Of a DNA stretch of 64,000 bases, positions 10,150 to 58,469 are shown piece after piece. Below the pieces are notes generated by a model. The model was not told the origin of the DNA. It searched no databases and saw nothing but the letters and a program-made list of their open reading frames with translations. How positions within the stretch are numbered: the stretch's first letter is position 1; the number at the start of each line of letters is the position of its first letter. The stretch lies in NCBI GenBank assembly GCA_012729555.1, contig JAAYCX010000019.1:1-64000 (forward strand), given 5' to 3'. The DNA comes from Acidobacteriota bacterium (lineage in GTDB: Bacteria; Acidobacteriota; UBA6911). Position numbers and translations under genes: made by a program.

Positions 10150-11808
10150 CTATGCGATCATGGATCGCACCTGGCCCGAGGGTTCCGACTGGGACAGGTA
10201 TTGGGAATAGGGTCCCCTGAAATCTTCGATCCGCCCGTTCCCGAAGTGCCATATGCGCGTCGCCACCTCGTCGATGACCTCGTGGTCATGCGTCACCAGG
10301 AGCAGCGTGCCTGCATATCGCTGCAGGGCGATGTTCAGAGCATTGATCGATTCCAGGTCGAGGTGATTGGTGGGCTCATCCAGCACGAGGATATTGGGTT
10401 TTTGCAGCATGAGACGGCACAGGATGATGCGGGCGGCTTCGCCCCCGGAAAGGGTGTCGGTGCGTTTCAGGGCATCGTCGCCGCTGAACAGCATCTGTCC
10501 GAGCAGCCCGCGCAACTCCTGCTGGGAGGCGGCGGGATCGCATTCGCGCAGCCATTCGATCACGCTCATGCCGGGCGGGATGGAGTCCCCGTGGTCCTGC
10601 GCAAAGTATCCGACGGCCGCTTCATGACCCCAGGTCACCGTCCCGCCGTCGACGGGGAACTCCCGGTCTGCGGCATCGATATTGCCGGAGGCGCAGCAAA
10701 TCAGCGCTTTCAGCAGCGTGGTCTTTCCCGCGCCGTTGCGCCCGATCAGGGCGATCTTTTCCCCGCGGCTGACCTTGGCGCTGAAGTCGCGGATGACCGG
10801 GACCTGCCCGTCTGCGCCCGCGTACGACTTGGCGAGCCGATCCACCTCGAGCGGATGTTTCCCCGAGGGACGCGCAACGTCGAACCGGATAAACGGGCGC
10901 TGGATATTCGATTTTGCCAGCTCCGAGGTCTGAAGCCTTTCGACCTCCTTCTTCCTGGAGGTCACCTGGGAAGAGCGCGTGCCCGCCGCGAAGCGGGCGA
11001 TGAATTCGTTCAACTGCGCGATCTTCTTCTCTCTCTGGGCATTGCCGGCTTCGATGCGCGACCGGACCTGCGTCTTGGCCAGCACCATATCGTCGTAACC
11101 GCCGGTGTAGGTGAGGACCGTCTGGTAGTCGATGTCCGCCGTATGGGTACAGACCTCGTTGAGAAAATGACGGTCATGCGAAATGACGATGAGGCAGCCC
11201 GAATACGCGCAGAGATATTCCTGGAGCCAGTGGACCGAATCGAGATCGAGGTTGTTGGTGGGCTCGTCGAGCAACAGCACCTCCGGGTTGCCGAACAGGG
11301 CCTGGGCCAGCAGAACCCTCACCTTCTGCCCCCCCTGCAGCTCACCCATCTTGCGTTCGTGCAGGGATTCCGGGATATCCAGGCCCTCGAGCAGGATGGC
11401 GGCATCCGTTTCCGCCGTATAGCCGCCTTCGTCGCCCATGATCCCTTCGAGCTCTCCCAGACGCATGCCATCACGATCCGTGAGGGTATCGGGATCCTTG
11501 GCATACAGCGCCTCGCGCTCCTGCATGGCGTTCCACAAAGCGGTATTCCCGAGGATCACCGCATCGAGCACGCGGTACGATTCAAAGGCAAACTGATCCT
11601 GCCGCAGGACGCCCATCTTTCCGGGCCGTGTCACCGAACCCCCTTCGGGCTCCATTTCCCCGGTCAGGATCTTCATGAGCGTCGACTTTCCGGCGCCGTT
11701 CGGCCCCGTGATCGCATAGCGTCGTCCGGCAATAAAGGTTGTGGAGACGTTTTCAAACAGGACGAGAGCGCCAAACCGCATGGAAATGTTGTTGAGAGAC
11801 AGCTGCAT
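10150..11808 (-). CDS. ABC-F family ATPase, YbiT-like
   Basis: 552 residues starting MQLSLNNISMRFG. There are two ATP-binding domains and no membrane segments: Walker A GPNGAGKST and GRNGAGKTT, with LSGGEAARI in the second. Between them lies the basic ABC-F linker. Sequence marks such as RQDQFAFE, YFAQDH and the C-terminal DF-x-Y-x-x-YL stretch match the YbiT/EttA group, which binds the ribosome and modulates translation. The open frame extends to 11955, but the extra N-terminus would run into a repeated element and is not family-like. Codon use is less GC-rich than neighbours, suggesting transfer. Gene symbol withheld because orthology is unproven. Confidence 0.88.
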   Translation of the reverse strand: MQLSLNNISMRFGALVLFENVSTTFIAGRRYAITGPNGAGKSTLMKILTGEMEPEGGSVTRPGKMGVLRQDQFAFESYRVLDAVILGNTALWNAMQEREALYAKDPDTLTDRDGMRLGELEGIMGDEGGYTAETDAAILLEGLDIPESLHERKMGELQGGQKVRVLLAQALFGNPEVLLLDEPTNNLDLDSVHWLQEYLCAYSGCLIVISHDRHFLNEVCTHTADIDYQTVLTYTGGYDDMVLAKTQVRSRIEAGNAQREKKIAQLNEFIARFAAGTRSSQVTSRKKEVERLQTSELAKSNIQRPFIRFDVARPSGKHPLEVDRLAKSYAGADGQVPVIRDFSAKVSRGEKIALIGRNGAGKTTLLKALICCASGNIDAADREFPVDGGTVTWGHEAAVGYFAQDHGDSIPPGMSVIEWLRECDPAASQQELRGLLGQMLFSGDDALKRTDTLSGGEAARIILCRLMLQKPNILVLDEPTNHLDLESINALNIALQRYAGTLLLVTHDHEVIDEVATRIWHFGNGRIEDFRGPYSQYLSQSEPSGQVRSMIA

Positions 11809-11932
11809 GGGAAAAAAGGCTCCGGGAGTGAGGGGACACGGCGACCTGACCGCAGAAAACCGCTGGGCCCAGTCGCAGAAAAAACCCGAAGTATACCCGG
11901 AAAGGCAGCTATCGCCAAATAAATGAAAAACC

Positions 11933-12125
11933 GGGACGTCCCACCCGTTACCCATTTATCAAAGCCCACCCGCAGCCCCGGCTCTGTCATCTGTCATGCT
12001 GCCGACAAAACCAAAATCTAAAACGATAAACCCGGTTCTCTTTGCGGGTCTTCAGTCGTTTGGGTACGGGCAGGCTTTTCGCCAGATCGGCTCTGTGATT
12101 GGGGACAATGGTGACTGTCCCCTCC
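11933..12125. repeat. ~195-bp direct repeat, copy A
   Basis: Starts with GGGACGTCCCACCCGTTACC and ends with a palindrome (arms GGGGACAAT and ACTGTCCCC around GGTG, 12101-12122) plus CTCC. The last ~65 bases (12061-12125) match 13010-13074 almost throughout, including TGGGTACGG, CAGGCTTTTC and TCGGCTCTG. The two copies bracket the higBA module. It fills most of the gene-free 11809-12131 stretch. Confidence 0.75.
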
Positions 12126-12131
12126 TACTCC

Positions 12132-12423
12132 TTATGCAGCGGCTTTCCGTACCCGCAATTCAACTTTGTATCCTGTGGCAGAAAGTACCCGAATCAAAAG
12201 ATCCGTCGACATCCCATGTGTGTTCCCATTAGCGATAGCCGTCACGCGTGTGCGAGAAGTTCCTGCCTTTTTGGCGATCTCTGCGTGTGTATATCGTCCA
12301 TTCTGGATGATTTTTGTCAAAGCGCAGGTGAGATCGGAACGAAACTCCATTTCTCCCGTTTCCGCCGCAGATAAACCCATAGCTCTTCCCAAGTCTTCGG
12401 CAGTCCTGGTGCGGATGGGCTTT

Positions 12424-12443
<20 letters not shown>
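12132..12443 (-). CDS. higA: HigA-type antitoxin with Xre-family helix-turn-helix
   Basis: 103 residues. A helix-turn-helix around residues 53-75 (HAEIAKKAGTSRTRVTAIANG) is followed by a short beta tail (GYKVELRVR). In HigBA modules the toxin gene comes first and the antitoxin also represses the promoter; here the antitoxin start overlaps the toxin stop by 20 bases, in that order. The gene is less GC-rich than the chromosome and lies inside a repeat-bracketed segment. Confidence 0.85.
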
Positions 12444-14444
<2,001 letters not shown>

Positions 14445-14464
14445 CCGCCCCCGGACCGGCGGCG

Positions 14465-14502
14465 GAAACGAAAACGGGCGGCCTCCGGGCCGCCCGTTTT
14501 TT
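14465..14502. terminator. Bidirectional terminator between enolase and the ABC ATPase
   Basis: Hairpin with arms AAAACGGGCGGCC and GGCCGCCCGTTTT and a four-base loop, followed by TT on the right. The A-rich left flank supplies a T-run for leftward transcription. It lies between two convergent genes. Confidence 0.85.
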
Positions 14503-14520
14503 GTGCGTTTCGTCAGGGGA

Positions 14521-15249
14521 CTACTTCGGCACCTTCTCGTCGCTGTGGATCTGCCCGTCGAGCAGGCGGATGATGCGGTAGGCGTGTTCGGCGATGTCGT
14601 TTTCGTGGGTGACCAGCAGGATCGTGTTCCCCCGCTTGTGCAGCGTGTCGAAGATTTCCATGATTTCCCTGCTCGTCGCGCTGTCGAGGTTGCCCGTCGG
14701 CTCGTCGGCGAGGATGAGCGAGGGGTTGTTGACCAGCGCCCGGGCGATGGCCACCCTCTGGCGCTGCCCCCCGGAAAGCTCGTTGGGCCGGTGGTAGACC
14801 CGCTCCCCAAGATCCACGTTCTGGAGCGCCTTGATCGCCCGCTCCTTCCTGTCATGCGACGCGGTCCCGTTGTAGATCAGCGGGAGTTCCACGTTGTGCA
14901 GCGCCGAAGCGCGCGGCAACAGGTTGAAGGTCTGGAACACGAACCCGATCTCCTTGTTGCGGATATGGGCCAGTTCGTCGTCGTCCATCTGCGAGACCAG
15001 CCGCTCGTTGAGCATGTACGTCCCCTTCGAGGGGGTGTCCAGGCAGCCGATCAGGTTCATCAGGGTCGATTTCCCCGACCCCGAGGGCCCCATGATGGCG
15101 ACGTACGATCCCCGGACGATGGAGAAGGTGACGCCCCTCAGGGCATGGATCTGCTCCGTTCCCATCTGGTAGGTTTTCCAGAGATCCTCGATGTGAATCA
15201 GGATGTTGTTGTCCCCGCCGGCGCTGCTATCGTTGGTTCCGCTCATCAT
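14521..15249 (-). CDS. ABC transporter ATP-binding protein, MacB/LolD type
   Basis: 242 residues forming a single nucleotide-binding domain: Walker [17 protein letters not shown]-loop [11 protein letters not shown], signature [15 protein letters not shown], Walker [15 protein letters not shown]-loop [12 protein letters not shown]. This is the type that pairs with MacB/FtsX-like permeases. It lies 22 bases downstream of the efflux adaptor gene and is surely cotranscribed with it. No permease gene follows; two orphan MacB-like permeases lie at 29.2-31.7 kb and are the obvious candidates. Confidence 0.93.
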
Positions 15250-51500: not shown

Positions 51501-51550
51501 AAAAAAAAAGGGACGGCGCGCCCCGCCCTGACGGGCGGAGGACCGTCCCC
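51501..51550 (-). terminator. Terminator of the acyl-CoA synthetase operon
   Basis: Read leftwards: GGGGACGGTC ... GCCGTCCC outer stem with an inner CCGCCC/GGGCGG stem, then nine T residues (complement of 51501-51509). It lies 36 bases beyond the stop of the synthetase gene. Confidence 0.8.
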
Positions 51551-51585: not shown

Positions 51586-53640
51586 TTACTTCTTCCGGAT
51601 CCTCACGTCCACCACCTTCACCCCCTCCCCCTCGGGGTAGACCATGACGGGGTTCAGGTCCATCTCCTCGATTTCGGGGAGGTCGACCGCCAGCTGCGAC
51701 ACCGCCAGCAGCAACCGCTGGACCGCGCCCAGGTCCGCGGCCGGCACCCCCCGGGAGCCGGTCAACAGCGGCAGGGAGCGGATTTCGCGCACCATCCGGG
51801 CCGCCCCGGCCTCCGACAGCGGGGCGAGGCGGAAGGACACGTCCCCGAGCGCCTCCACGTGGACCCCGCCCAGGCCGAACATCAACACCGGTCCGACCCC
51901 CTCTTCCCGCTTGAGGCCGACGATGATCTCCGTCCCCCGGGGGCACTGCTCCTGGACGACGAACCCGGCGCCGGGGAAGGCGCCCGACATCCGCTCCCAG
52001 GCTTTTTGGAGCCCCCCGTCATCCGCGATACCCAGCTCGACCCCGCCGGCGTCGCTCTTGTGCACGACGTCCGGGCTGTCCACCTTGAGGACCGCGGGGT
52101 ACAGGGTCCCCTCCGGCGCCCGGCCCCCCGTCATCGGCGCGGTCCGCGCCGCCGGGATCCCGTAGGCGCCGAGCACCCCGTAGGCGTCCGCCTGGGGGAT
52201 GTAGCCCCCCGGGGCCGCTCCCAGGATCGCCTCGGCCGCGGCCCGGTCCCCCGGCACCGTAGCCGGGGGCTCCTCGAGCCGCTTCTGGACCTCGCGGTAG
52301 CGCGCCATCGCCGCCACCACCCGGGCGCCGCTTTCGGGGAATTCGTACACCGGGATCCCCGCCCCCTTGATCTTCTCCACGGTGGAGGCCCAGTTTTCGT
52401 TCGTCATCACGACGCACACGATCGGCTTGGTCGCCCGGCCGGCGCACTCGGCGATCGCGTCGGCCACCGCCTCGCAGTCGACGAAGGGGGGAGTCACCAT
52501 GGTGACGAGGATCGAGTCGACCCCCGGGTCGGCGTCCAGGGCGGTGAGCGTCAGGCGGAAATGCTCGGCGTTGGCCGTGGCGGCGACGTCGACCGGGTTT
52601 TCCACGTAGGCCTCGGGGATCAGCCCGGCGCGCAGCGTCGCCTTCGTTTCCTCCGTGAGGGTGGCCAGGGTGAGGCCGCAGCCGACGCACTCGTCGATGG
52701 CCATGATGCCGGGGCCGCCGGCGTTGGCGACGATGGCCACGTTCGGCCCCGCGGGCACCGGCTGGTTCGCCAGGGCGTACCCGGCCGAGATCATCTCCTC
52801 GGTCGTCTGGAAGCGCAGGACGCCGGCGTGCTCGAAGATCGTGTCGGTCAGCGAGTCCTGCTGCATGAGCGACCCGGTGTGGGAGCTCACCGCCTTGGCC
52901 GCCGCCTTGCTGCGCCCGGTCCGGATGGCCAGGAGCGATTTTCCCTTCGCGATGCGGCGGCAGCTCTCGATGAATTCCCGGGTGTCCTTCATGCTCTCGA
53001 TGTGCATCATGATGGTGCGGGTCCCCGGGTCGGAGCCGAAATACTCGAGCAGCTCGTTGGTGCTCACGTCGGACGCGTTCCCCTGCGACGCGTACATCCG
53101 GAAGCCGGAACCCATCCGGCGCAGGTTCAGGTTGAGCAGCTCCGCCACCCCCCCGCTCTGGGCGAGGATGGAGGCGTTGCCCGGCCTCATCGGCGTGAAG
53201 GTGAAGTTGGCGTAGACCGAAACCTCGGGGTCCGAATTCATCACCCCCTGGCAGTTGGGGCCGTACACCCGCACCCCGTATCTCTTCGCCGCCTCGAGCA
53301 GGGCGTCCTCCAGGCGCGCCCCCTCCCCCCCCATCTCGCGGAAGCCGGCGGTGTGGATGATGACGAACTTCACCCCCTTCTTCCCGCAATCCTCCACCAT
53401 CTGCGGGACCAGGGTGCTCTTGACGGCGATGGTGACGACATCGACCGGCCCCGGTACGTCCAGGATGCTCGGGTAGGCCTTCAGGCCCAGGATCTCGGCC
53501 TCCTTCGGGTGGATGGGGTAGATCGGCCCCTTGAAGTTGTGGGTGATCAGGTTCTTCACCACCCGGTTGCCGATGGAAAAGGTGTTGTTGGACGCTCCCA
53601 GCACGGCGACGGCGCGGGGGCGGAACAGGGTATCGAGCAT
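51586..53640 (-). CDS. Acyl-CoA synthetase (ADP-forming), fused alpha and beta subunits
   Basis: 684 residues. The N-terminal CoA-binding domain (FRPRAVAVLGASNNTFSIGNRVV) is followed by the succinyl-CoA-ligase-like domain with the phospho-His254 in SSHTGSL. A C-terminal ATP-grasp domain follows (AVLKVDSPDVVHKSDAGGVELGI, EIIVGLKREEGVGPVLMFGLGGV, LNPVMVYPEG). It converts acyl-CoA, ADP and phosphate to acid, ATP and CoA, or the reverse. It is last in the 58-51 kb gene group, 59 bases after the dehydratase activator, so it may conserve energy from that pathway. Confidence 0.92.
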   Translation of the reverse strand: MLDTLFRPRAVAVLGASNNTFSIGNRVVKNLITHNFKGPIYPIHPKEAEILGLKAYPSILDVPGPVDVVTIAVKSTLVPQMVEDCGKKGVKFVIIHTAGFREMGGEGARLEDALLEAAKRYGVRVYGPNCQGVMNSDPEVSVYANFTFTPMRPGNASILAQSGGVAELLNLNLRRMGSGFRMYASQGNASDVSTNELLEYFGSDPGTRTIMMHIESMKDTREFIESCRRIAKGKSLLAIRTGRSKAAAKAVSSHTGSLMQQDSLTDTIFEHAGVLRFQTTEEMISAGYALANQPVPAGPNVAIVANAGGPGIMAIDECVGCGLTLATLTEETKATLRAGLIPEAYVENPVDVAATANAEHFRLTLTALDADPGVDSILVTMVTPPFVDCEAVADAIAECAGRATKPIVCVVMTNENWASTVEKIKGAGIPVYEFPESGARVVAAMARYREVQKRLEEPPATVPGDRAAAEAILGAAPGGYIPQADAYGVLGAYGIPAARTAPMTGGRAPEGTLYPAVLKVDSPDVVHKSDAGGVELGIADDGGLQKAWERMSGAFPGAGFVVQEQCPRGTEIIVGLKREEGVGPVLMFGLGGVHVEALGDVSFRLAPLSEAGAARMVREIRSLPLLTGSRGVPAADLGAVQRLLLAVSQLAVDLPEIEEMDLNPVMVYPEGEGVKVVDVRIRKK

Positions 53641-53699
53641 GGCTGCACTCCTTGGTCAGATGATGATTGCCTGACGGCCGGGCAAAGGCTCCGGACCGT

Positions 53700-54479
53700 T
53701 TATTCCGTCTCGGCCGCCAGGAGGGCGGCCCCGAAGGCTCCCGCGAGCTGGGCGTCCGGCAGGATATGCACGGGGCGGCGGACCATCCGCCCGAGCATTT
53801 CCGCCAGCATCGGGCTGTGGGCCACGACCCCTCCCGTGAGCACCACCTCCCCCGCGAGCGGGTCCATTTCCACGATGCGCTTGACCACCGACTCGATCAG
53901 CCCGGCCACGATTTCCGGCACTTTTTCCCCCGCCCTCATGTGGGCGAGGATCTCGGTCTTGGTGAACACGGTGCAGTAGCTCCCCATGTGCACCGTGTGC
54001 GAGGCCTGGCGCGCCAGCTCGTCGATCCGCTCGAGCGGCACGTCCATGCGCTGGGCGACCTCTTCCAGGAAGGCGCCGGTGCCGGCGGCGCATTTCCGGT
54101 TCATCTTGAAACTCTCCCGCCGCCCCTGGGCGTTGACGTGGATGATCTTGTTGTCCTGCCCCCCCACGTCCACGACCGTGATGCGGCGGGGGAAGTGGAA
54201 GTGCGCCGCCCGGGCGTGGCACGCGATCTCGGTCCGGGTGGCGTGGGCGAAGTGGACGTTGTGGCGCCCGTACCCGGTCGCCACCACGCGCCGGAGCCCC
54301 TCGAGCCGGAGGCCGGCGGAGGCCAGGGCCGCGCCCATGGCCTCCGCGGCGCTCGCCTCGAAGCTGACGCCCGTTTTCCGGACGTCGGAGGCCACGATCT
54401 TCCGGCCCCCGCCGACGAGGGCCACCTTGGTGGCGGAAGCCCCGATGTCGACCCCCCCGTAGACGGCCTCCGCTGTCAC
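53700..54479 (-). CDS. ATP-dependent activator of a 2-hydroxyacyl-CoA dehydratase (BadF/HgdC family)
   Basis: 259 residues from a GTG at 54479 that overlaps the previous stop (GTGA). The ASKHA ATPase fold is shown by GGVDIGASATKVALV, VVDVGGQDNKII and LTGGVVAHSPML. Cys130 (KCAAGTGAFLEE) and Cys169 (GSYCTVFTKTE) match the two cysteines per subunit that hold the bridging [4Fe-4S] cluster in HgdC. It drives single high-energy electrons into the partner dehydratase at the cost of ATP. Confidence 0.93.
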   Translation of the reverse strand: MTAEAVYGGVDIGASATKVALVGGGRKIVASDVRKTGVSFEASAAEAMGAALASAGLRLEGLRRVVATGYGRHNVHFAHATRTEIACHARAAHFHFPRRITVVDVGGQDNKIIHVNAQGRRESFKMNRKCAAGTGAFLEEVAQRMDVPLERIDELARQASHTVHMGSYCTVFTKTEILAHMRAGEKVPEIVAGLIESVVKRIVEMDPLAGEVVLTGGVVAHSPMLAEMLGRMVRRPVHILPDAQLAGAFGAALLAAETE

Positions 54480-55732
54480 TGTCCCCTCTTCTCCGCCAGC
54501 TGCTCGATATACGCCTCGATGTTGGTGCGGGCCTGTTCCTCCGAATAGCACCGGAGGTCGTTCAGGTCGCCGTGGATGACGAGGGTCGGCATGTCGAACC
54601 TCCTGGAGATCCGTTCGACCATCCCGTAACGGTCGTTGGAGTTGTTGGGGCACGTCTTGGCGTCGTGAAAGATCATGCCGTCAATGCCGTAATGGCGGAT
54701 CTGCCGGGCGAAGTACTCCTCCTTGTAATCCTCGTCGCGCACGATGAAGAGCTCGATGTAGGCCCGGGCCATGCTTTCGAACGGCTCGTCCGCATCGAGC
54801 GCGGGGAACACCCAGCTGCTGCAGTAGGTGGAGGCGAGGACGCAGGCCTGGAGCTCGGCGAACTGGGTGGAGAGCTCGCGCAGCTTCCCCCAGATCGGCA
54901 TCCCCTCCCAGTAGATGCGGTATTTCTCGCCGTCCACCGCCGCCACCCCCTCCTCGATCCGCTGCTTGAGCTCCGCGAGCAGGAGCTTGTAGTAGTCGAC
55001 CGCCCGCTGCTCCCCGCGCATGACGACCGCGGGCCCCATCTGCACGGTGCCGTCGAAGAAGGTCAGGGGGGAGGGCTTGTGGGCGGCGATCTCGAGGACC
55101 TCCTTCCAGAGGTCGGTGCACTGGCGCGACAGGCCCACGACGCGCTTGAACTCCTCCATGTCCAGCTTCTTCCCGCTGACCTCCTCGAGCTTGGGGACCA
55201 TGGCCTTCAGCTGGTCCGCGATCGAGTCGATGTGGGCGCGGGTGACCTCCCCCACCCCCCGGTGCGTCTGGATGCCGATGACGGGAACCTTGAATTCGCG
55301 CCCGTAGAAGTTGAACCAGTCCTGCACGTCGCGGCACTGGTTGGTGTTGAAGACCAGGACGTCGGGCCGCGGCGGCCCATCGATGCCGGGGTAGGCCTTG
55401 GAGATCGGGCTCTCCCCCTTGAGGTACGACCCGATGTCGGCCGTCAGGTAGGAACAGATGTCGGGCGAATAGCCGATCGCGTTGGCCAGCGGGATGAGGT
55501 CGGTGGCCATGCGGGTGGCGCCCAGCATGGCGCCGTGGTTTTCCGGGTAGAAGACCTGGAACCCCATCCCCTTCAGCAGCTCCGCGGGGCCCACGCTGGT
55601 GCACCAGGCGACCTTCTGCTTTTTGGTTCTGGCCGCCTCGTCCAGCTCCCGGAAATGGGCTTCCATGATCTCCTTCATCCTGCCCGAGGCGTGTATCTTC
55701 TTGAAATTCTGTTTGGGTCGATCGCTTTTCAC
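54476..55732 (-). CDS. 2-hydroxyacyl-CoA dehydratase/benzoyl-CoA reductase family protein (HgdB-like), single subunit
   Basis: 418 residues from a GTG at 55732, with AGGAG seven bases before it. Family blocks include VAWCTSVGPAELLKGMG, SPDICSYLTADIG, NTNQCRDVQDWF, RIYWEGMPIWGKLREL and MIFHDAKTCPNNS. Likely cluster ligands are Cys44, Cys93 and Cys361; further cysteines lie at 133, 205, 297, 304 and 395. Classical enzymes have two homologous subunits, but only one is encoded here. It may act as a homodimer, either as a dehydratase or as a double-cubane cluster protein of the type that also has one subunit plus its own reductase. The CoA-enzyme neighbours favour a dehydratase. Confidence 0.85.
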   Translation of the reverse strand: MKSDRPKQNFKKIHASGRMKEIMEAHFRELDEAARTKKQKVAWCTSVGPAELLKGMGFQVFYPENHGAMLGATRMATDLIPLANAIGYSPDICSYLTADIGSYLKGESPISKAYPGIDGPPRPDVLVFNTNQCRDVQDWFNFYGREFKVPVIGIQTHRGVGEVTRAHIDSIADQLKAMVPKLEEVSGKKLDMEEFKRVVGLSRQCTDLWKEVLEIAAHKPSPLTFFDGTVQMGPAVVMRGEQRAVDYYKLLLAELKQRIEEGVAAVDGEKYRIYWEGMPIWGKLRELSTQFAELQACVLASTYCSSWVFPALDADEPFESMARAYIELFIVRDEDYKEEYFARQIRHYGIDGMIFHDAKTCPNNSNDRYGMVERISRRFDMPTLVIHGDLNDLRCYSEEQARTNIEAYIEQLAEKRGQ

Positions 55733-56703
55733 TCGCTGACTCCTGTCGTGGAATGTGGTTCCCGTTGGCGCCGCCCCCGCAGCTCCAGCCCCTCGATCAC
55801 GGCCGCCAGGGTGCGGTGCAGGGGGACGGGGACCCCCTCGAGGTCCCCGTATTCGGCGATCCGCCGGACCAGGAACTCGTTCTCGGTCCTGCGGCCCTTC
55901 TCGATGTCGGCCAGCATCGACGGCCGGTGAGGCCCGATGTGGCGGTGAAACTCCCGCACCTGCTCCGCGAAGCCGGGGCCGAAGTCGAAGCCGCGGGCGG
56001 CGGCGACCGCGATCGACTCCTCGAGCAGCCCGTCCGCCAGCCGCTCCGTCGGGCCGAACCGCATGATCTCCTGCATGTCGAGCCCGGTCACGGCCGACAC
56101 CGCCATGATGCAGGTGTTGAAGACGGTCTTGCGCCAGGCGTGCCGCTGGATCTCCCCCGTCGCCTCGGTCTGGAGGCCGGAGGAGGTCAGCAGTGCCGCC
56201 GCGTCCCGGCAGGCGGCCTCGGCGGCCGGGTCGAGCCACCCCAGGTAGTTGGGGGGGTTCGAAAAGCTCTCCCTGATTTCGCCGGGCGCCGGGAGCACCC
56301 CCGCGTAATGGACGACGCCGCGCAGGACCCGCTCCCGCCCGAGGCGCTGGGCCATCACCGCTTCGGTGTCGATGCCGTTCTGGAAGGAGACGAAGACGGC
56401 GCCCGAACCGCCAAGAACGGGGCCGACGGCGTCGAGGACCTCCCCGAGGTCCGAGGCCTTGGTGCAGACGAAGACCAGTTCCGGGACCCGCTCCTCCAGC
56501 TCCCGGACCGAGGCGCACACCCGCGCCGGCCGGATCCGGTCCTCCCCCCGCCCGGTGATGCGGAGCCCCTCCGCCCGGATACGGTCGCGGTGCTCCTTCC
56601 AGACGTCCACCACGGCGACGGAGTGGCCGGCCGAGATCAAATGCGCCGCCAATATGCCGCCGATCGGTCCGGCGCCGACCACGGCAAGGTTTCTGGACAT
56701 CAT
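55729..56703 (-). CDS. Ketopantoate reductase-family 2-oxoacid/2-hydroxyacid dehydrogenase
   Basis: 324 residues. The NADP-binding GAGPIGGILAAHLISAGHSV starts near residue 9. The catalytic Lys is in HAWRKTVFNTCIMAVSAVTG, and the NGID block and a helical C-terminal domain follow. Family members reduce ketopantoate or other branched 2-oxoacids to (R)-2-hydroxyacids. Its stop overlaps the dehydratase start (GTGA), so I infer that it makes the 2-hydroxyacid for that enzyme rather than pantoate. Confidence 0.85.
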   Translation of the reverse strand: MMSRNLAVVGAGPIGGILAAHLISAGHSVAVVDVWKEHRDRIRAEGLRITGRGEDRIRPARVCASVRELEERVPELVFVCTKASDLGEVLDAVGPVLGGSGAVFVSFQNGIDTEAVMAQRLGRERVLRGVVHYAGVLPAPGEIRESFSNPPNYLGWLDPAAEAACRDAAALLTSSGLQTEATGEIQRHAWRKTVFNTCIMAVSAVTGLDMQEIMRFGPTERLADGLLEESIAVAAARGFDFGPGFAEQVREFHRHIGPHRPSMLADIEKGRRTENEFLVRRIAEYGDLEGVPVPLHRTLAAVIEGLELRGRRQREPHSTTGVSE

Positions 56704-56794
56704 GAAGTCGATCCTAGACCGATGCCGTCGGCATCGGTAGCGAAAACCATATGCAGCCGGCCGCGGGCTGTCAAGTCAAAAGCGGGATCCCGTT

Positions 56795-58003
56795 TCAGGA
56801 CAGCACCCCCGCGGTGCGCAACCGGGCGATCTCCTCCGGGCCGTAGCCCAGGTCGAGCAGGATCTCGTCGGTATGCTCCCCCAGCCCGGGCGCCTGCCGG
56901 CGCCACGAGGCCGGGGTGTCGCTGAAATCCCAGGGGAAGCCGACCTGGCGGCTCCTCCCCAGCTTCGGGTGGTCCACCTCGATGACGTACCCGTTGGCCA
57001 GCGCCTGCGGGTCGGCCGTCACCTCCGTGAGGGTCTGGACCGGGGTCGCGATGCACCCCTCCGCTCCGAGGCGCCGCATCCACTCCTCCCGCGTCCGGGA
57101 GGCGAAGCGTTCGTCCAGGACCCGGATCAGCTCCCGGGAGTTTTCGCCCCGGGCCTCCATCGTGTCGAAGCGCGGGTCGTGCTCGAGGTGGGGGATCTCC
57201 AGGGCCCTGCAGAACGCCGGCCAGTAGCGGTCGGGCTGCAGGTGGGCCACGACGATCCACCGCTCGTCCCGGCAGCGGTAGTGGTTGTACATGGGGTTGC
57301 CCGCCGCCTCCCGGCTGTCGCGCGGGTACTCCTTCCCCAGCATCGCCGGCGCGTCGATCATGAGCCCGGCGAGATTGATGATGCTGCCCATCAGGGAGGT
57401 GTCCACCACCTGCCCCTTCCCGGTCCTTTCCCGGGCCAGGAGCGCGGCGGTGACGCCCCAGGCCAGCATGAGGCCGCCCATTTCGTCCCCCATCCCCGGG
57501 AGAAACTGCCCCGGGGGGCTCCCCATCTCCCCGGCGCACATCATCAGGCCGCTGCGGGCGATGCCGGTGTAGTCGAACGACAGCTCCCGGGCGTCGGGCC
57601 CCTTGCGTCCCCAGCCCGAGGCGTGGGCGTACACGAGGCGGGGGTTGCGCGCGAGCAGCTCCTCGGGGCCGAAGCCGATCCGGGCCGGCGCGTCGATGCT
57701 CATGTTGGTCAGGAAAACGTCCGCCCGGTCGATCAGGTCGAGGAAGATCTCCTTCCCTTCCGCCGCCTTCAGGTCGATCGCGATGCTGCGCTTGTTGCGG
57801 TTGTGGCTCTCGAAGTAGAAGTTGTGCCCCTCGAGGCCGACCGTGGCGCCGATCAGGCGCATGAAGTGCCGCCCCGGGTCCCCCTCCTTCGGTTCCACCT
57901 TGACGACGTCGGCCCCCAGGTCCCCGAGCCGCGTGCCCGCGATCGGGCCCTGCTGGAACATCGTGATCTCCACCACCCGTACTCCGCTGAGCGGTCCCGC
58001 CAT
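56795..58003 (-). CDS. Family III CoA-transferase (CaiB/BaiF)
   Basis: 402 residues. The start at 58003 is preferred over 58009 because AAGGAGG is then six bases away. LSGVRVVEITMFQQGPIAGTRL and DLGADVVKVEPKEGDPGR open the protein. The catalytic Asp is probably Asp144 in SFDYTGIARSG, and GKGQVVDTSLMGS is also typical. It moves CoA between carboxylic acids. In clostridial 2-hydroxyacid pathways a family III enzyme (HadA) activates the hydroxyacid, and that role fits here. A 91-base gap separates it from the dehydrogenase gene. Confidence 0.92.
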   Translation of the reverse strand: MAGPLSGVRVVEITMFQQGPIAGTRLGDLGADVVKVEPKEGDPGRHFMRLIGATVGLEGHNFYFESHNRNKRSIAIDLKAAEGKEIFLDLIDRADVFLTNMSIDAPARIGFGPEELLARNPRLVYAHASGWGRKGPDARELSFDYTGIARSGLMMCAGEMGSPPGQFLPGMGDEMGGLMLAWGVTAALLARERTGKGQVVDTSLMGSIINLAGLMIDAPAMLGKEYPRDSREAAGNPMYNHYRCRDERWIVVAHLQPDRYWPAFCRALEIPHLEHDPRFDTMEARGENSRELIRVLDERFASRTREEWMRRLGAEGCIATPVQTLTEVTADPQALANGYVIEVDHPKLGRSRQVGFPWDFSDTPASWRRQAPGLGEHTDEILLDLGYGPEEIARLRTAGVLS

Positions 58004-58055
58004 GCGCATCCTCCTTCGGAAAAGGGCCCTATCATACGACCGGAGGGGGAAGGGG

Positions 58056-58469
58056 TCAAGCCGGCGGCCGGGACCCCGGGGCCGGTTTTTCCCCGCCCTC
58101 CGCCCCGTCGGCGGCCCCGGGCGCCCCGAAATCCTCCGTCCCCTTCGGGTATTGCCCGCTCAGCTCGTCGCTGAGGGTCCCCTTCCAGAGCGGGACGCCG
58201 GCGTGGAAGGCGGCGCGCGCCAGCACGTGGGTGGCCACCGGCGCCGAGATCAGGAGAAAGACGATGGCGGCCACCGCCTTGGTGTAGCTGATCAGGTCGC
58301 CGAAATGCGCCGCGGCCCCCAGCATGATGCAGCTCACCCCGAGCGTGGCCGACTTGGCGCTGCAGTGCATGCGAAGGAAAAGGTCGGGGAAGCGGAGCAC
58401 GCCGATCGCGGCGACCAGGGAGAAGAAGGCGCCCAGGGCCAGCAGGACCGCGCTCAGGACCTGTCCCAT
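58056..58469 (-). CDS. mrpG: Na+/H+ antiporter subunit MrpG (MnhG)
   Basis: 137 residues. Three membrane helices (LSAVLLALGAFFSLVAAIGVLRFPDLFLRMHCSAKSATLG and two more) match MrpG. RFPDLFLRMH and AKSATLG are conserved. A ~40-residue acidic, Pro/Gly-rich tail is an addition. It overlaps mrpF by 16 bases and is the last gene of the operon. Confidence 0.92.
   Translation of the reverse strand: MGQVLSAVLLALGAFFSLVAAIGVLRFPDLFLRMHCSAKSATLGVSCIMLGAAAHFGDLISYTKAVAAIVFLLISAPVATHVLARAAFHAGVPLWKGTLSDELSGQYPKGTEDFGAPGAADGAEGGEKPAPGSRPPA

Follow-up and report, generated by a model that had tools for sequence, protein, structure and literature searches.

Can a 2-hydroxyacyl-CoA dehydratase work with one subunit? 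The question is raised by five minus-strand genes in a 64,000 bp stretch of an Acidobacteriota genome (GenBank:GCA_012729555.1, contig JAAYCX010000019.1, positions 1 to 64,000; here called the window), which encode, in order, a family III CoA-transferase (CaiB), a ketopantoate-reductase-family dehydrogenase (KPR), an HgdB-like protein, an HgdC-type activase and an ADP-forming acyl-CoA synthetase, as assigned from the sequence and from Pfam and NCBIfam profiles. The third of these, a 418 residue alpha-type HGD-D protein of the HgdB/HadB kind (54476-55732, GTG start; PF06050, 226 bits), is the only dehydratase subunit in the set, and searches of open-access literature aimed at a one-subunit 2-hydroxyacyl-CoA dehydratase turned up no description of one. 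As its anatomy, genome-wide singleness, conservation and predicted fold attest, this module with its beta-less dehydratase is a conserved, widely distributed variant of the 2-hydroxyacyl-CoA dehydratase systems. We infer its activity, substrate, direction and quaternary structure, and put at roughly 60% the probability that it is a beta-less, probably homodimeric 2-hydroxyacyl-CoA dehydratase module, acting most likely on aryllactyl-CoA.

A dehydratase gene without a second subunit gene

A preliminary description of the locus had noted one dehydratase subunit and raised the question of a second HgdA/HadB-type gene elsewhere. A PF06050 profile search of the whole source genome (G000; 3.83 Mb, 98.9% complete) recovered exactly one gene, the HgdB-like one. 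It is also the sole HGD-D gene in the genus mate G004 and in 10 of the 43 genomes reached via its relatives (G069, G074, G075, G079, G081, G082, G084, G094, G098, G100), the remainder having extra HGD-D genes elsewhere, some of other family types. Twelve genomes in all thus carry it as their only HGD-D gene, two Acidobacteriota among them at 96-99% completeness, indicating that the HgdB-like protein functions with no second HGD-D subunit.

A scan of 84,980 species genomes yielded 493 relatives of this gene, and the locus counts given here use the best 80, at least 61% identical. No second HGD-D open reading frame was detected by PF06050 in 79 of these 80 loci, with flanks of up to 10 kb on each side; as a control, the same profile does detect the adjacent partner or beta subunits of two-subunit loci. 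The 80 span records titled Acidobacteria, Deltaproteobacteria/Desulfobacterales, Planctomycetota, Anaerolineae, Zixibacteriota, Elusimicrobia, Aminicenantes, Thermoplasmatota and others, and carriers of the gene include the sulfate reducers Desulfonema magnum and NaphS2. Whether the gene order recurs, a further question of the preliminary description, can also be answered: the cassette is found in genus mates and in distant relatives, with a core of KPR, HgdB, HgdC and synthetase.

Placement of the solitary protein among catalytic subunits

Sequence and predicted fold place the HgdB-like protein with the catalytic alpha subunits (HadB) and not with beta subunits or double-cubane proteins (DCCPs). 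Its best match among solved structures is HadB (3o3m_A, 5.8e-49; profile 1e-58), which is the catalytic alpha chain of (R)-2-hydroxyisocaproyl-CoA dehydratase. An AlphaFold monomer (predicted local distance difference test score 93.4, predicted template modelling score 0.91) was ranked by Foldseek closest to HadB (template modelling (TM) score 0.90/0.94), followed by MbdO and BzdO (~0.86), DCCP (~0.76) and the beta subunits (~0.70). Scores against the double-cubane model NF040772 (59.8 bits, cut-off 350; the DCCPs of related genomes score 421-529) and against the class I benzoyl-CoA reductase models TIGR02260 (168 bits, cut-off 487) and TIGR03191 (91 bits, cut-off 449) are all well below threshold. 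The solitary proteins group in a tree as one clade with 100/100 support inside the alpha half, the fork between it and the HadB-type and benzoyl-CoA-reductase-type alphas being poorly separated.

Cys93, Cys133 and Cys361 align with the HadB cluster ligands Cys84, Cys117 and Cys346 and are invariant in 81 of 81 sequences. The clade has two further cysteines that are absent from HadB, Cys44 (81/81) and Cys304 (79/81). In a profile alignment with double-cubane proteins, using the ligand list of BzdN (PMC11971306), the three proximal ligand positions are matched, Cys304 falls on a distal-cubane ligand, Cys44 lies one residue off another and the sixth position, also distal, is unmatched.

Partner enzymes and proposed mechanism

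In the mechanism we propose, KPR would make an (R)-2-hydroxy acid from the matching 2-oxo acid (most likely an arylpyruvate), and CaiB and/or the ADP-forming synthetase would convert this hydroxy acid to its CoA ester. Using ATP, the HgdC-type activase would pass a single electron to the [4Fe-4S] cluster in the HgdB-like protein. That protein, having no beta subunit and probably being a homodimer, would eliminate water by way of a ketyl radical, yielding the 2-enoyl-CoA. Relatives with the appropriate neighbouring genes could take aryllactyl-CoA through cinnamoyl-CoA to benzoyl-CoA via beta-oxidation; in the source genome, without the tested ring-cleavage genes, the enoyl-CoA would undergo reduction or shortening, and release of the product could return ATP through the synthetase.

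All five proteins score far over their Pfam cut-offs. The activase, a 259 residue ASKHA ATPase of the HgdC/HadI type (53700-54479, GTG start; PF01869), scores 208 bits on TIGR00241 (cut-off 125), and both its cluster-cysteine motifs (MNRKCAAG, GSYCTVF) align with HadI. An activase occurs in 71/80 relatives' loci, on the same strand and within 300 bp in 61 of them. KPR (324 residues, 55729-56703; PF02558/PF08546; TIGR00745, 180 bits) is not the pantothenate enzyme PanE, as the preliminary description had likewise supposed, because the source genome has another KPR on contig C75, flanked by PanB and PanC in a panB-panE-panC operon; PanE was rejected as its identity for this reason. We infer that the cassette KPR is a reductase of 2-oxoacids to (R)-2-hydroxyacids.

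The synthetase (684 residues, 51586-53640), an alpha-beta fusion with CoA-binding, ligase and ATP-grasp domains in a single chain (PF13380, PF13607, PF13549), matches the ADP-forming 4-hydroxybutyrate-CoA ligase 8wzu (1.6e-126). ATP gain at this enzyme, as first proposed, stands as one possible direction; relatives without a synthetase often have an AMP-forming CoA ligase (present in 27/80 loci), suggesting a possible alternative role for the synthetase, activation of the hydroxy acid. CaiB (404 residues, 56795-58009; PF02515, 390 bits), of the CaiB/formyl-CoA transferase type, has a catalytic Asp region that aligns with succinate-hydroxymethylglutarate CoA-transferase. It was rejected as a conserved-core gene, being found in only 2 of 80 loci, both from genus mates. 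CaiB is essentially genus-specific, an accessory addition outside the core in view of its absence from most relatives, and the conserved core is KPR, HgdB, HgdC and synthetase.

The recurrent partners follow a pattern. An ADP-forming synthetase is near 46-47 of the 80 relatives, KPR near 34, a GlcD-type FAD dehydrogenase (2-hydroxyacid type) near 16, and thiolase occurs in 23 loci. KPR and the GlcD-type enzyme never share a locus (Fisher p = 4e-5, a value that ignores relatedness), and none of the 16 GlcD-type loci has a synthetase (p = 4e-8, likewise ignoring relatedness). This is the arrangement expected if interconversion of 2-oxo and 2-hydroxy acids, followed by CoA activation, feeds a dehydratase. 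The gene set, the alpha-type fold and the recurrence of 2-hydroxyacid enzymes thus support the 2-hydroxyacyl-CoA dehydratase logic first proposed for the locus. A second type of neighbourhood (L058, L061, L062, L118, L124, L125) combines malonyl-CoA decarboxylase, a GlcD-type FAD dehydrogenase with CCG domain, the solitary HgdB gene and the activase, mostly adding an AMP-forming ligase and thiolase.

Aromatic-acid neighbourhoods of the relatives

The benzoyl-CoA ring-cleavage genes had and/or oah, some with dch, are present in 15/80 loci, with scores of 576 (Had), 569 (Oah) and 448 bits (Dch) against the corresponding models, all over cut-off; a phenylacetate-CoA ligase-like gene is present in 13/80 and IorA in 11/80. 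One relative (L099) carries on one strand had, dch, HgdC, HgdB, synthetase, thiolase, 3-hydroxyacyl-CoA dehydrogenase (HBD), PaaK, IorA, IorB and KPR, and a similar run in L069 adds an enoyl-CoA hydratase. In G012, from the same family as the source genome, genes for a two-subunit class I benzoyl-CoA reductase, two activases included, immediately precede the solitary dehydratase gene (L052:4510-12331 onward, contig C1), after which come KPR, the activase, had, oah and a dch-like gene. These neighbourhoods fit a sequence from arylpyruvate through aryllactyl-CoA and cinnamoyl-CoA to benzoyl-CoA. The likeness to the clostridial leucine route drawn in the preliminary description finds no support in that form: the wider family is found in aromatic-acid neighbourhoods of mostly respiring anaerobes.

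Genome profile searches of four cassette carriers (G000, G003, G004, G006) gave no Had match (TIGR03201) and no Oah over cut-off (TIGR03200), indicating no obligate link of the solitary enzyme to ring cleavage, and G081, G084 and G098, where the solitary gene is the only HGD-D gene, gave no Had match either. The source genome does have an IorA-like gene (644 bits, just below the cut-off of 651), followed by an IorB-like gene.

Weighing the alternatives

The reading of the module as a beta-less aryllactyl-CoA dehydratase must be tempered by several points. The 2-hydroxyacyl-CoA dehydratases that have been characterised are heterodimers of an alpha and a beta subunit, the latter holding the cluster on which the electron is stored (PMC11574389). 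The HgdB-like protein reaches 226 bits on the NCBIfam HadB equivalog, far under its cut-off of 750; given the two extra conserved cysteines, Cys44 and Cys304, the cofactor of the solitary clade may differ. No 2-oxo/2-hydroxyacid gene is in view in 9 of the 42 relatives with 5 kb on both sides, and the aromatic substrate is less certain in the source genome than in the relatives because the tested ring-cleavage genes are missing from it.

Were the solitary protein a one-subunit ATP-dependent reductase of aryl-CoA (benzoyl-CoA type) or enoyl-CoA, and not a dehydratase, its position about equally close to benzoyl-CoA reductase catalytic subunits and HadB in the tree, and the adjacency of had and/or oah (in some cases also dch) in 15 of 80 relatives, would be accounted for. 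We nevertheless regard this as quite unlikely: G012 already has a classic two-subunit class I reductase directly upstream, HadB beats the reductase subunits by both sequence and fold, the recurrent 2-hydroxyacid enzymes would be senseless for a ring reductase, and three of the genomes with the gene as sole HGD-D member have no Had. A one-subunit benzoyl-CoA reductase was dropped as the best reading on the four cassette-bearing genomes without a Had match or an over-cut-off Oah. It is distinctly improbable that a beta partner has escaped notice through divergence beyond the reach of PF06050 or through gaps in the genomes; dehydratases of the HadBC kind do have a beta subunit (PMC11574389) and many carrier genomes are draft metagenome-assembled genomes, but the profile recovers the beta subunits of control pairs, and only the solitary gene is found in 12 genomes, including the two nearly complete Acidobacteriota.

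A double-cubane-like reductase of small molecules, with neighbouring genes unrelated to it, would share the pairing of one D-like gene with an activase, and of the two extra cysteines one is aligned with, and one a single residue from, distal-cubane ligand positions. We consider it very improbable, with a score of ~60 bits on NF040772 against a cut-off of 350, one of the six cubane cysteines without a counterpart, a fold at TM 0.76 to DCCP versus 0.90 to HadB, and a consistent acyl-CoA neighbourhood; identity with DCCP itself was rejected on score, cysteines and fold. The remaining alternative keeps the enzyme and reverses its direction in oxidative metabolism. Water would then be added to enoyl-CoA at C2, the 2-hydroxyacyl-CoA would yield ATP through the synthetase, and oxidation of the 2-hydroxy acid by KPR or GlcD would supply IorAB with a 2-oxo acid. 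Sulfate reducers among the carriers (Desulfonema magnum, NaphS2), the usually oxidising GlcD-type enzymes and the suitability of an ADP-forming synthetase for ATP formation all speak for this reversal, which we still judge unlikely, since the synthetase is absent from every GlcD-type locus, adjoining beta-oxidation and ring-cleavage genes better fit enoyl-CoA formation, and KPR enzymes favour reduction.

Comparison with known systems

HadBC with HadI and HadA of Clostridioides difficile shares with the cassette the alpha-subunit fold, the three cluster cysteines, an activase with both cluster motifs, a family III CoA-transferase and an upstream 2-oxoacid reductase. The cassette differs in having no HadC-type beta subunit, a KPR-type enzyme in place of LdhA and an added ADP-forming synthetase, and its dehydratase clade differs from HadB in the two extra invariant or near-invariant cysteines. 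Clostridium sporogenes has a phenyllactyl-CoA dehydratase, FldABC with FldI, reportedly described by Dickert in 2002 (cited in PMC13416013); it resembles the cassette in the proposed substrate class (phenyllactyl-CoA type) and in its CoA-transferase logic, but FldBC has two subunits where the cassette has one. Class I benzoyl-CoA reductases (BzdNOPQ, MbdONPQ, BcrCBAD) have a homologous catalytic subunit and activase, and in several relatives the solitary gene shares its neighbourhood with dch, had and oah; the cassette, in contrast, has one subunit instead of two and a single activase gene, and occurs in genomes without had or oah.

Sets of one dehydratase-type gene and one activase are already known, since double-cubane proteins, encoded as DCCP and DCCP-R, are homodimers (PMC11971306). 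A homodimer is proposed for the solitary protein as well, but it differs from DCCP in its incomplete set of the six cubane cysteines, a score far under the DCCP cut-off and its acyl-CoA pathway neighbours. Desulfococcus multivorans can use phenyllactate for growth, and its proteins of growth on phenylacetate and phenylpyruvate include IorA3B3, a thiolase, a hydratase, Hbd, a CoA ligase and a tripartite ATP-independent periplasmic (TRAP) system; no dehydratase was named for the route, and how it reaches benzoyl-CoA was described as unclear (PMC5109826). Similar elements flank three relatives of the solitary gene (L073, L084, L107). A 2026 study of the benzene-degrading sulfate reducer BzS1 invoked a phenyllactyl-CoA dehydratase whose gene was not firmly assigned, and mentioned a singular gene 30% identical to FldB (PMC13416013).

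Organization of the locus and its copies in the genus

The sequence and Pfam matches bear out the five leftward genes, two GTGA overlaps and one terminator reported previously. The overlaps join KPR to HgdB (HgdB GTG start with KPR stop) and HgdB to HgdC (activase GTG start with HgdB stop), and an intrinsic-terminator-like stem followed by 9 T, found by consensus scan and in the sequence (51510-51528, minus strand), ends the set. A sigma-70-like consensus scan over 11 kb gave 3 promoter-like sites versus 0.6 expected, among them two on the minus strand, one 5' of CaiB (58031-58059, TTGACC-17-TATGAT) and one within the 91 bp gap between CaiB and KPR (56774-56746, TTGACA-17-TATGGT). CaiB, counted earlier as a member of the set, remains one at this locus, qualified by its own promoter-like site and its absence from most relatives. 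On the 5' side the set is neighboured by an Mrp-type antiporter operon, and on the 3' side, on the opposite strand, by genes for a phytase-like esterase and S-adenosylhomocysteinase.

The cassette was found in seven genus mates, with CaiB at the locus in 6 of 7; the G001 copy of CaiB is cut by a contig edge, and the G006 cassette has neither CaiB nor synthetase at the locus. A LarA-type racemase lies beside the cassette in five of the seven, and in G007 and G009 KPR is gone, with LarA in its place. The LarA homologues (nickel-dependent 2-hydroxyacid racemase type) are located at L032:6559-7842, L033:10396-11730, L034:12351-13634 and, in G008, L037:3062-4375 and 11096-15051; one genus mate has in addition an Ldh_2 dehydrogenase and second copies of both LarA and CaiB. 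A thymidylate-synthase-like gene is near the cassette in several genus members (L042:15514-16398, L036:6356-7195), with differing genes between.

Implications

If one subunit suffices, the division of roles between alpha (catalysis) and beta (electron storage) becomes directly testable in a simpler enzyme. A bolder proposal, which we advance tentatively and consider doubtful as a whole, is that a widespread beta-less homodimeric aryllactyl-CoA dehydratase could be the enzyme still missing from the routes by which sulfate- and iron-reducing bacteria, along with some archaea, degrade phenylacetate, phenylpyruvate and aryllactate anaerobically. The route would run from IorAB carboxylation of phenylacetyl-CoA to phenylpyruvate, through KPR reduction, activation and dehydration to cinnamoyl-CoA, to beta-oxidation to benzoyl-CoA, bypassing phenylglyoxylate, with a cofactor maybe intermediate between [4Fe-4S] and double cubane. 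The relatives' neighbourhoods offer an answer to how sulfate reducers without Pad enzymes convert phenylacetate or phenylpyruvate to benzoyl-CoA, the step called unclear in Desulfococcus multivorans (PMC5109826), and point to a possibly overlooked anaerobic route for aromatic compounds such as these.

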